Positions 26,017-55,898 of a DNA stretch of 64,000 nt are shown one piece after another. The stretch spans positions 1 through 64,000 of the forward strand of contig NZ_JACBOT010000001.1 in assembly GCF_021532275.1 (NCBI RefSeq), given 5' to 3'. Position 1 is the first letter of the stretch, and every line of letters starts with the position of its first letter. The position numbers were made by a program, and so were the translations under genes. The notes below the pieces were generated by a model. It saw only the letters and a list, made by a program, of their open reading frames with translations. It was not told the origin of the DNA and ran no database searches. The stretch is from Brevibacterium sp. UCMA 11754 (GTDB lineage Bacteria; Actinomycetota; Actinomycetes; Actinomycetales; Brevibacteriaceae).

Positions 26017-26047
26017 AGGCGGCCCTGCGAATTTCGCAGGGCCGCCT
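26017..26047 (-). terminator. hairpin terminator after the thiosulfate-uptake genes
   Basis: AGGCGGCCCTGCGAA, one base, then its exact complement: a 15-bp perfect stem. On the minus strand it follows the tusA-like stop and is followed by TTTGTGC, so it should end that transcript before the surface operon begins. Confidence 0.7.
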
Positions 26048-39315: not shown

Positions 39316-39344
39316 GGGCAATTCAGCTTCGCCGAGCGGGCACC

Positions 39345-39388
39345 TTAGCGTTGAGCGGCTATGGCAGAACCTAGCCCGTCAACGCTAA
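39345..39388. terminator. bidirectional hairpin between convergent operons
   Basis: TTAGCGTTGA and TCAACGCTAA are perfect 10-bp arms, with GGCTA/TAGCC pairing inside. It lies between the transporter ATPase stop and the stop of the convergent proline-racemase-like gene. Confidence 0.65.
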
Positions 39389-39427
39389 TGTGACCGCTCG
39401 ATGAAAGAGGTTGTCTGGGCAGCTTGC

Positions 39428-45327: not shown

Positions 45328-45451
45328 CGCTCGGACCGCGTTCCGAGTACTCCGACACCGCGGCGGCCTCGGTCGCCGCGAAGTCACACGCTCTCTCGCT
45401 GTAGCCGATCCCCACGCTCCAACTGATTCCCACGCTGCAAAGGTGACTGAC

Positions 45452-47083
45452 ATGAACATCGACGCGATCTTCACCGATCTTGATGCCCACACGCTCGACC
45501 CGGCACGTCCGCGGGCGACGAAGATCGGCGTCTTCGCCGGGCGCATCATCGGCTTCGACGAGGAACTCGACGGCGTCACCGCGGATCGGGTCGAATCGCT
45601 GGGCGGGGCCACCGTGCTCCCTGGCTTCAACGACGTCCACTGCCACACCGCATGGTTCGGACTCACCCTGGCATCCATCGACGTCACAGCGCTGCCCGGC
45701 GGTCTGCCCGATGTCTACGCTGCGCTCGAGAAAGCGGCAGCGACGACGCCGGCCGGCGAGTGGATCAACGCCACCGGCTACGCCCACCGCGACTACGACG
45801 GGCAGTACCCGGAGCTCTCCCGCCTCGACGAGATCACCGGCGACCGGCCTCTGTTCATGCGGCAGACCTCGGGGCATGCCGCGATCGTCAACACCGAGGC
45901 GATGAAGCGAGCGGGGATCCTCGACCCCGGCTTCAGCGACCCCGTCGGGGGCAAGGTCGTCACCGATGCGACGGGCCACCCCACAGGTCTGGTCGAAGAG
46001 ACCGCGCAGGGCCTCGTCCAGGACCTCATCCGCCCCTATTCACTTGACACGATTGTCGAGGCCATCGACCTTGCGACTGCGTACTACGCAAAGGAGGGCA
46101 TCACTTCCTTCGGTGACTGCGGCGTCGCCTACGGGTGGATCGGGCACTCCCCCATCGAGGTCAGCGCCTACCTGCGCGCTCGCGAAGAGGGCAAGCTGCG
46201 TGCCCGCGCGCAGCTCCTGCCGCAGGCCGATGGTCTCCACGAGATCGCAGCGAACTCCGCCGACGGCTTCGGCATCGGCCTCGATGCGGGAGTGCGCACC
46301 GGCCTCGGCGATGACCTCGTCTCGCTGGGACCCGTCAAGTTCTTCATGGACGGGGCGCTGAGCGGGGAGACCGCGGCTCTCCGGGAGAACTACGAGGGCA
46401 AGGACCATCCCGGCTATCTGCAGGACGACGCCGAGGTGCTGCGCAAGCAGATCCTGGACACCTACGCCTCCGGGTGGTCCGTCGCGGTCCATGCGATCGG
46501 CGATGCGGCCGTGGATGCTGCGGTGGCCAACATCGTCGACGCCCAGGCCAAGTATGGTCGCCGAGCCGTTCCCAACCGGATCGAGCATGCTGGCCTCGTC
46601 CATGATGAGCACCTGTCCACCTTGGCCGACAACAGCATCGTCGTGACCCCGCAGTCAGCGTTCGCCGAAGGAATCGGCGACGGAATGAACGCCTCACTGG
46701 GACCTGCGCGCCGCTCACTGATCTACCGCGCGAAGTCCTTCCTCAACGCCGGTGTGCTCCTGGCCGGCAGCTCGGATCGCCCTTGCGCCGACGGCAATGC
46801 GCTGCGCGGCATCGAAGCCTTTGTGACCAGGAAGACCCGCGATGGCGACATCATGGGCTCGGCCGAGGAATGCCTGAGCGCCGATGAGGCGATCGCCGCC
46901 TACACCTCGGTCGCGGCCGAGGCCTCCGGGCATGGCGCAGACAAGGGAACACTGTCACGCGGGAAGCTCGCGGACTTCGTGGCCCTCGATGCCCACCCCG
47001 CCGAGGTGGAACCGGAGCAGATCTCACAGATCACGGTCCGCGCCACCGTCCTCGGCGGAGATTTCACCCACGACGCCCGCTGA
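45452..47083 (+). CDS. amidohydrolase, YtcJ-like (amidohydrolase_3)
   Basis: 543 residues from ATG 45452 (AAAGGTGA upstream). PGFNDVHCHTAWFGLTL carries the HxH metal ligands; ETAALRENY, VAVHAIGDAAVDAAV with a metal His, RIEHAGLVHDE and AGSSDRPCADGNA are the later ligand and active-site regions. A carboxy-lysine or Glu bridge is likely (KFFMDGALSGE). These enzymes cleave amides or related bonds of unknown small molecules. A long run of upstream frame is a shadow of the previous gene end and the hairpin region. Confidence 0.85.
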   Translation: MNIDAIFTDLDAHTLDPARPRATKIGVFAGRIIGFDEELDGVTADRVESLGGATVLPGFNDVHCHTAWFGLTLASIDVTALPGGLPDVYAALEKAAATTPAGEWINATGYAHRDYDGQYPELSRLDEITGDRPLFMRQTSGHAAIVNTEAMKRAGILDPGFSDPVGGKVVTDATGHPTGLVEETAQGLVQDLIRPYSLDTIVEAIDLATAYYAKEGITSFGDCGVAYGWIGHSPIEVSAYLRAREEGKLRARAQLLPQADGLHEIAANSADGFGIGLDAGVRTGLGDDLVSLGPVKFFMDGALSGETAALRENYEGKDHPGYLQDDAEVLRKQILDTYASGWSVAVHAIGDAAVDAAVANIVDAQAKYGRRAVPNRIEHAGLVHDEHLSTLADNSIVVTPQSAFAEGIGDGMNASLGPARRSLIYRAKSFLNAGVLLAGSSDRPCADGNALRGIEAFVTRKTRDGDIMGSAEECLSADEAIAAYTSVAAEASGHGADKGTLSRGKLADFVALDAHPAEVEPEQISQITVRATVLGGDFTHDAR

Positions 47084-47094
47084 CTCCCCCAAAC

Positions 47095-47146
47095 ACCCGA
47101 CGGCGGCCCTGCTACCTCGCGCGAGGTAGCAGGGCCGCCGTCGGGT
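47095..47146. terminator. 52-base perfect palindrome between convergent genes
   Basis: Arms of 26 bp with no loop: ACCCGACGGCGGCCC...CTCGC meets GCGAG...GGGT. It begins 11 bases after the amidohydrolase stop, and the aminotransferase stop follows 15 bases after it. It could serve as a bidirectional terminator. The perfect, loop-free arms and the GC content are unusual for one; see findings. Confidence 0.75.
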
Positions 47147-47160
47147 AGCAGTTGGTGGGG

Positions 47161-48522
47161 TCAGCGGGAGAAGTCGAGGTCGATGAGGACCTTTTCGAAG
47201 ACGCCCAGGCCGGTCTCGAGGTCCTCTTCGCTGATGTTGATCGGCGGGACGACGTGAAGCCGGTGGTAGTTGTTGAAGGGGACGACGCCGTGTTCCTTGA
47301 GTGCAGCAACCACCGAGGCGACTTCGGGCGAGCCCCCACCGTAGGGCGCCAGCGGTTCGCGGGATTCCTTGTCCCAGACCAGTTCGATCGCCCAGAAGGC
47401 GCCGACTCCGCGGACCTCGCCGACGTGCTTCGAGTTCTCCGCTATCTGACGCAGCCGGGGCCCGATGATCTCCTCGCCGATGCGTTCGGCGTGCTCCATC
47501 ATGCCCTCCTCGTCCATGGCCTTCATCGTGGCCACCGCGGCCGCGCAGGCCAGAGGGTGGCCCGAGTAGGTGAGTCCGCCGGGATAGGGCCTGCGTGCGA
47601 ATGAACCGTAGATCGCATCATCCATGATCACCCCGCCCAAGGGCACGTAGCCGGAGTTCACGCCCTTGGCGAAGGTGATGATGTCGGGCACCACGTTGAA
47701 GTGCTCGAAGGCGAACCATCTGCCGGTGCGGCCGAAACCGGCCATCACCTCGTCGGCGATGTAGATGATGTCGTGCGTGTCGCACAGCGCACGGACGCCG
47801 CGCATGTAGTCGCTTCCGGGGAGCATGATGCCGGCGGTGCCCGGAATGGTCTCGAGGATGATTGCGGCGATCGTCGACGGACCCTCGAGTTCGATGGTGC
47901 GCTCGAGGTGCCGCAGTGCCCGCTCGGTCTCCTCCGCCTCTGTGGTGGCAGAGAACTCGGACCGGTACAGGAAAGGCCCGAAGAAGTGGACGACACCTGA
48001 GTCACCGCGATCATTCGACCACCGACGTGGGTCGCCCGTGACGTTGACGGCGGTCTCGGTGCCACCGTGATAGGAGCGATAGCGGGAGAGGATCTTATGC
48101 TTGCCCGTGTGCAGCCGGGCCATGCGGATCGCGTGCTCGTTCGCGTCGGCTCCGCCGTTGGTGAAGAACACATGGTCGAGTCCGGCCGGGGTGCGATCGG
48201 TGATGAGGCGGGCGGCCTCCGAGCGAGCGGCGTTGACGTGGGCGGGACTGATCGTGCACAGCAGGTCCGCCTGATCCTTGATGGCCTGGACTACCTTCGG
48301 ATGCTGGTGCCCGATGTTGGTGTTGACCAGCTGGGAGGAGAAGTCGAGGAACGACTGCCCCTGGCCGTCGATGATGGTCGATCCCTGCGCACGGGAGACG
48401 GTCATCGGATCAAGCAGCTCCTGCGCCGACCACGAGTGGAAGACATGCGCCCGATCGAGCTCGTAGGCCCTGGCGGATTCGTCCTTGATCGCTGCGATGT
48501 CTGCCTCGCTGAGCTGCTGCAC
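47161..48522 (-). CDS. class III aminotransferase
   Basis: 453 residues. PLP-binding Lys in [15 protein letters not shown] (about 285), [15 protein letters not shown] carries the cofactor Asp, and [20 protein letters not shown] the phosphate-binding residues. The family includes omega-amino-acid and polyamine aminotransferases such as beta-alanine:pyruvate and taurine enzymes. The [18 protein letters not shown] region is consistent with this. Neighbours (decarboxylase, amidohydrolase) point to amine or beta-amino-acid breakdown. Confidence 0.88.
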
Positions 48523-55843: not shown

Positions 55844-55898
55844 GCTCCTCCTCATCATTGGCTATACGCCTACTCGATGGACAATGATGAGGAGGAGC
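55844..55898. repeat. 17-bp inverted repeat between SDR and patatin genes
   Basis: GCTCCTCCTCATCATTG and its exact complement are separated by 21 bases. It begins 13 bases after the SDR stop. The right arm includes GGAGGAGC, a ribosome-site-like run, so a folded RNA might hide or release it. It may be a terminator or attenuator; no U-run. Confidence 0.7.

Follow-up and report, generated by a model that had tools for sequence, protein, structure and literature searches.

Long perfect palindromes are generally regarded as unstable, and the palindromic elements of Rickettsia are examples in which a palindrome is carried inside a reading frame. REP and BIME repeats, described together with the RAYT transposases, are dispersed, mostly intergenic palindromes in high copy that are often located between convergent genes (PMC2817692; this and the other comparisons with published systems draw on extracts of the papers cited). 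REP palindromes are also known as targets of IS110 and IS621 elements (PMC1525189, PMC11208160). Gene ends are the place of intrinsic terminators and inverted repeats just after stop codons (PMC6060812), and U-poor 3' ends have been reported in Streptomyces (Streptomyces avermitilis, PMC8780764). Finally, the DNA uptake sequences of the Neisseriaceae occur in dialects, with inverted pairs that are tied to terminators (PMC3630211). In listings and extracts from the open-access PMC literature, Brevibacterium genome papers included, we found no description of the repeats treated here.

The locus examined here lies in a stretch of 64,000 nucleotides from Brevibacterium sp. UCMA 11754 (the window). 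The preliminary description had pointed to a perfect, spacer-free palindrome of 26 + 26 bases between two convergent genes, and comparison of the arms confirms it. The arms, 47095–47120 and 47121–47146, are 26 nt each, 100% complementary and 0 nt apart, an arrangement with a chance expectation of ∼1e-10 in 64 kb of the same base composition with independent bases. As Table 1 shows, the perfect 52-bp core is extended by imperfect outer arms that reach over the stop codons of both genes. The TGA stop codon of the amidohydrolase ORF is 6 nt from the 62-nt repeat unit discussed below, and the aminotransferase stop codon is 9 nt from it. The RNA fold of 47070–47175 has an energy of −88.9 kcal/mol (z −12.4), with 0 of 200 shuffles equally good. 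No T-run terminator pattern was found within 46500–47700. Rfam gave 0 matches above the gathering score and 13 below; the microRNA-like matches are long-hairpin noise, and a known RNA family was rejected for the palindrome.

Table 1. Positions of the palindrome, its flanking features and the copies located within etfA
Feature	Position	Strand	Remarks
Perfect spacer-free palindrome, core of one family-A copy	47095..47146		model match 77 bits, both strands; family alignment
Whole slot, stop codon to stop codon, 77 nt: element with C-rich/G-rich outer arms	47084..47160		
Left outer arm	47076..47092	+	88% complementary to 47152–47168; takes in stop codon of + gene
Right outer arm	47152..47168	-	takes in stop codon of - gene
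Amidohydrolase-family ORF, Amidohydro_3 PF07969	45158..47083	+	profiled 45446–47080; start uncertain
Class III aminotransferase ORF, Aminotran_3 PF00202	47161..48522	-	convergent to amidohydrolase ORF
etfA-internal family-A copies	G000:C29:37145 (L010:2446-2507); G003 (L072:6266-6327)		

A scan of the window for perfect arms of at least 14 nt with loops of 0–12 nt returns a single further match, at 26017–26047 with 15-nt arms; this hairpin has GGCGGCCCTGC in common with the repeat family of the palindrome (family A). Two long imperfect inverted repeats, 39333–39400 and 55844–55898 (arms of 29 and 22 nt, loops of 10 and 11), are unrelated to family A.

The palindrome is a member of a dispersed, sequence-conserved Brevibacterium repeat family. 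Similar DNA was seen at 12 places in the own genome (G000), and a covariance model of 12 gapless-aligned copies over 62 nt has 17 matches in that genome at E ≤ 10. Thirteen of these matches are strong, which answers the search for further copies proposed in the preliminary description and excludes a single copy. Three weak matches (C11:94110, C15:1352 and C15:8786) represent a single ordinary hairpin that comes after an aminotransferase gene, has TCTTTG behind it and does not belong to family A; the remaining one (C21:374223) matches poorly and was left out. The full unit, ∼62–80 bp, runs from a C-rich outer arm through CTACCTGACGGCGGCC... to a centre GCGC and then its mirror image. In the family alignment the GCGC centre is almost invariant, two-sided changes occur in 11 of 29 base pairs, 13 pairs never vary, and symmetric change is found in 19 cells versus 7.5 ± 2.0 in shuffles.

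Model matches at E ≤ 0.001 are present in 39 of 57 genus genomes, 15 of which have at least 94 each, and the remaining 18 have no model match. The exact half-site CTACCYGACGGCGGC is found in 24 of the 57, with a maximum of 70 + 67 in one genome; the reversed pattern, as control, gives 0–1 matches per strand. Across 84,980 species genomes the exact core occurs in at least 118 stretches, and 80 of the 80 listed are Brevibacterium. An order-wide model search of 396 genomes gave matches in 71, 49 of them from other genera (best E outside the genus 7.4e-10), and the latter may be ordinary long hairpins. Plasmids and phages, from which records near the own genome were possibly left out, have no blastn match to the palindrome, and an origin of family A in either was rejected on this ground.

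Copies of family A are concentrated at gene ends. In a set of 41 (13 from the own genome and 28 from G003), placement is convergent for 17, tandem for 20, divergent for 0 and inside an ORF for 4, whereas the 246 gene boundaries at their loci include 50 convergent and 44 divergent ones; 36 of the 41 start ≤26 nt from a stop codon, with a median of 9 nt. A second set of 80 named loci, chosen by a pattern requiring a perfect core, holds 83 copies. Both neighbours were called for 70 of these (38 convergent, 29 tandem, 3 divergent); the other 13 lie inside an ORF (6) or at an edge (7), and the median distance from the stop codon is 6 nt. Convergent places are in excess (38/70 copies versus 82/430 gene boundaries, p 6e-11) and divergent ones in deficit (3/70 versus 79/430, p 5e-4). 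The pooled 198 copies include 5 that are divergent, 8 inside ORFs and 8 other; since genes were called by a simple codon-score method made for this analysis, single contexts can be wrong. One checked copy between divergent genes, G048:695174, is absent in G003. Family A is present at just 1–3 of the 12–16 convergent pairs per 100-kb stretch. When such stretches are compared among four related genomes, at least 5 slots have A in two or more, and one relative clearly lacks 1 slot, with many slots not comparable owing to a missing or rearranged flank. The copy at L069:6427 directly follows another hairpin. The etfA gene (ETF and ETF_alpha profiles) of two species contains a family-A copy that is in frame and read through as protein, which is like the Rickettsia elements; unlike them, nearly all copies of family A are intergenic.

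Family A resembles REP repeats in that its palindromes are extragenic, dispersed and numerous, and that the unit carries a GTAG-like motif at its end, in this case GGTAG/CTACC (PMC2817692). Relative to the REP/BIME units described in those extracts, however, the Brevibacterium units are 52–80 bp, perfect or nearly so, and lack a loop spacer, and the GTAG is not 5' of the hairpin, where REP repeats have GTAG or GTGG, but in the stem itself, at the 3' end. The RAYT domain (Y1_Tnp, PF01797) was found in 0 of 57 genus genomes, with matches in 5 of 14 control rings. A RAYT-mobilised REP in the strict sense was rejected for these two reasons, the missing Y1_Tnp and the different motif layout. No target-site duplication is seen by eye in the few filled and empty sites compared, where the spacer differs throughout and a short duplication could be lost. 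The earlier suggestion of a mobile, REP- or MITE-like repeat family therefore holds as far as a dispersed, sequence-conserved family goes, and not for a strict REP or for a visible target duplication. By analogy, family A may work like REP repeats and bidirectional terminators, while strict membership of the REP class fails.

We compared the window slot among 41 genomes of the genus. It holds family A in 16, a variant of A in 2, and A split by an IS in 2; an unrelated palindrome of family B in 5 (G045, G005, G052, G028 and G049), a D-like palindrome in 2 (G021 and G047), another long palindrome in 1 (G007) and another spacer in 1; 8 have only 1–21 nt and no palindrome (G004, G056, G006, G012, G032, G035, G043 and G050), and 4 are not comparable. 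The G007 palindrome (L109) reads CCCGAA.GGACAAATTCGA... The genes flanking the slot are 94–98% identical between G000 and G045/G005. In a tree of these two genes, G000 (A) groups with G045 and G005 (B) with a support of 0.81, then with G002 (A) at 1.0, and further out stand G004 with G056 (short), G052 (B), G028 with G049 (B), and G016 with G017 (A). Provided that the slot follows the genes, hand parsimony gives a minimum of three changes between A and B there; alternatively, short tracts may have recombined between species.

The same exchange appears at other gene ends. The family B unit is CCTCCC[CT]GACGTCACTAA ... followed by its mirror. Its half-sites number 10–13 in G005, G045, G028 and G052, 6 in G056 and 1–2 in five others; family D is found in 12 of 57 genus genomes, and G000 has neither B nor D. 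Placement is convergent in 17 of the 17 listed B occurrences and 6 of 10 D occurrences, many of which are the same slot in sister species. Four of the seven B places in the close relative G045 match A slots of G000 at both flanks (with 74% identity for one of the right flanks), two match at one flank (C17:46742 and C1:411400), and at the seventh G000 has no A. If 3,600 gene ends are assumed, of which 13 are A slots, sharing at least three of seven has p 1.3e-6. At C31:452460, with both flanks matched, A is found in G016, B in G045, G005, G004, G052 and G028, and D in G056 and G049; in G002 the contigs break inside this palindrome. At C17:45587, A is found in G002 and G016 and B in G045, G005, G052 and G056, and pattern matches give B in G028 and D in G049. 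The right flank of C17:46742 adjoins B in G045, G005, G028, G052 and G056 and D in G004, and C24:244368 has B in G045 with both flanks matched. The A slots C1:130872 and C31:401360 are without a palindrome in G045, and C1:95470 is not comparable.

Between G045 or G005 and G052, the B core differs at 1 of 58 positions, whereas the surrounding 3.7 kb are 88.8% identical; B is thus either strongly constrained or recently exchanged. The gene between C17:45587 and C17:46742 is 71–82% like its counterpart in several B genomes, with outer flanks of ∼95% in G045/G005. In B-type relatives this gene has apparently been replaced as a cassette, both palindromes included (G000:C17:45587-46803).

Comparison of flanks shows that slots of family A are shared with the unrelated families B and D in relatives, where these take the place of A. 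Because several of these spots hold a different palindrome in a close relative, the palindromes would seem to be a gene-end signal whose place is kept and whose sequence can be swapped. For the genus as a whole, the aligned slots show a family of gene-end palindromes whose places are mostly fixed and whose sequence can be exchanged. Many positions are inherited, and several Brevibacterium species keep dozens of such long palindromes at positions common between species. Slot sharing of this kind is a natural experiment in which the gene-end need, a palindrome in place, is separated from incidental sequence; it also renders the origin of REP-like repeats that lack a RAYT testable.

The position of the copies just after stop codons is like that of intrinsic terminators and gene-end inverted repeats (PMC6060812), and the stable hairpin directly after the stop codon that marks an intrinsic terminator is present in family A. 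The preliminary description had considered a terminator without a U-run odd, a view that the genus does not bear out. In the 8 nt after the stem, family A has a mean of 2.1 T, with five or more in 0% (n = 115), and hairpins of the genus that follow stop codons but lie outside the family have a mean of 2.3 T, with five or more in 4% (n = 45). Since these other gene-end hairpins also lack U-runs, the U-run, which family A does not have, is weakly diagnostic here, and its lack does not count against termination. Unlike intrinsic terminators as described in the extracts, the family-A sequence, centre included, is conserved between unrelated genes across the genus. On the sense strand of copies downstream of one gene only, G-U and A-C mismatches number 20 vs 15 (p 0.5), without a G-U excess, so that this test for RNA-level selection on pairing was negative. 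Convergent copies, whose orientation is arbitrary, have 20 A-C and 6 G-U mismatches. The arms extend outward past the consensus in 10.3% of one-sided copies vs 2.8% in shuffles (highest of 300 shuffles 7.5%), and in 7.1% of convergent copies vs 4.2% (highest 11.4%), the latter no excess; related copies were removed only in part for this test.

Taken with the placement and the slot exchange, these data lead us to lean, by a modest degree, towards a two-way gene-end hairpin that belongs to a REP-like family and acts as a terminator or protects 3' ends. RNA arriving from either side would fold into a long hairpin, which would end or protect the 3' ends of both transcripts. Any sufficiently long palindrome would then serve, so that slots could persist while their sequences are exchanged, be it by recombination between species, gene conversion or a mobilising enzyme. 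Several observations do not fit such a hairpin well. Conservation of the sequence, with GCGC at the would-be loop included, goes far beyond the needs of a hairpin alone; the two etfA-internal copies are in an odd place for a terminator; one copy is located between divergent genes and another directly behind a different hairpin; most convergent pairs of the 100-kb stretches lack A; and eight genomes manage without a palindrome at the window slot.

The same misplaced copies would be natural for a selfish miniature element that is moved by a transposase and seen at gene 3' ends since insertions elsewhere are harmful. This is a possible explanation that we nonetheless consider unlikely. High copy number in one species group next to genomes devoid of model matches, copies from separate sites of one genome that do not differ along 62 nt, and clear presence and absence between relatives all agree with it. 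It is opposed by the filled and empty sites, where no target duplication is visible, and by the absence of the REP transposase family from the genus genomes and of plasmid or phage matches; tolerance of insertions alone, moreover, leaves the use of A's slots by B unaccounted for. It is also conceivable, although we regard it as doubtful, that fixed gene-end slots are rewritten among A, B and D by an undescribed process, in which each family may have its own cognate protein, such that slot and sequence would be inherited separately.

Conservation of the sequence and not of the structure alone, a palindromic centre that is invariant or almost so, and the lack of a G-U bias would fit a DNA-level site for a dimeric protein (nucleoid, gyrase-like or uptake), with A, B and D as dialects for different versions of the protein. 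The families do tend to replace one another across genomes, and the uptake sequences of Neisseria likewise have dialects and paired copies at terminators, so that family A resembles them as species-group variants of one repeat (PMC3630211); counting palindromic units only, however, there are tens of copies and not the thousands of the uptake sequences in that account, and family A is not known to be connected with transformation. With no candidate protein, dialects that are not exclusive (some genomes mix B and D) and a strong gene-end bias that such a role does not require, we judge this reading improbable. An ordinary gene-specific terminator outside any family, or an assembly artefact, is highly improbable and, as far as the sequence data go, already refuted: strong hairpins between convergent genes are common and draft contigs do end at copies, but the dispersed copies share one consensus, occur in single-contig genomes and fill the same slot in independent assemblies. 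For 47095–47146 in particular an artefact is unlikely, given that G002 has the same perfect palindrome at the same slot and that several single-contig genomes contain copies of the family.

The preliminary description also raised a recombination site, and this stands to the extent that IS110-family elements lie inside copies, with no wider sense borne out. Such an element splits the window-slot palindrome in G003 and G039, and PF01548 and PF02371 are present in both intact IS110 insertions. The insertion points are after CCGTCAG/CCGTCGG and after CTACCTC. The IS end GATCCTTCTATG adjoins a family-A copy in 6 of 6 distinct copies, at two points, in loci that were chosen for carrying the family. 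Family A is therefore used as an IS110 landing site, in line with the REP palindromes that are targets of IS110 and IS621 (PMC1525189, PMC11208160); it differs from the REP targets in those extracts in that the Brevibacterium palindrome has two insertion points. Another family-A copy in G003 carries an IS with an integrase core domain (rve).

These palindromes host IS110 elements and break draft assemblies, which is useful in practice for genome work and bridge-RNA studies on cheese and skin bacteria. Draft contigs of G002 and G009 start or end at family-A copies, seven G009 contigs begin ≤64 nt from a half-site, and palindromes are the site of two contig junctions in G002. In the own genome, contig C15 (L064, 10,178 bp) is a mirror image that contains its genes twice in inverted order, with the same genes again on C11, and is probably an assembly artefact.
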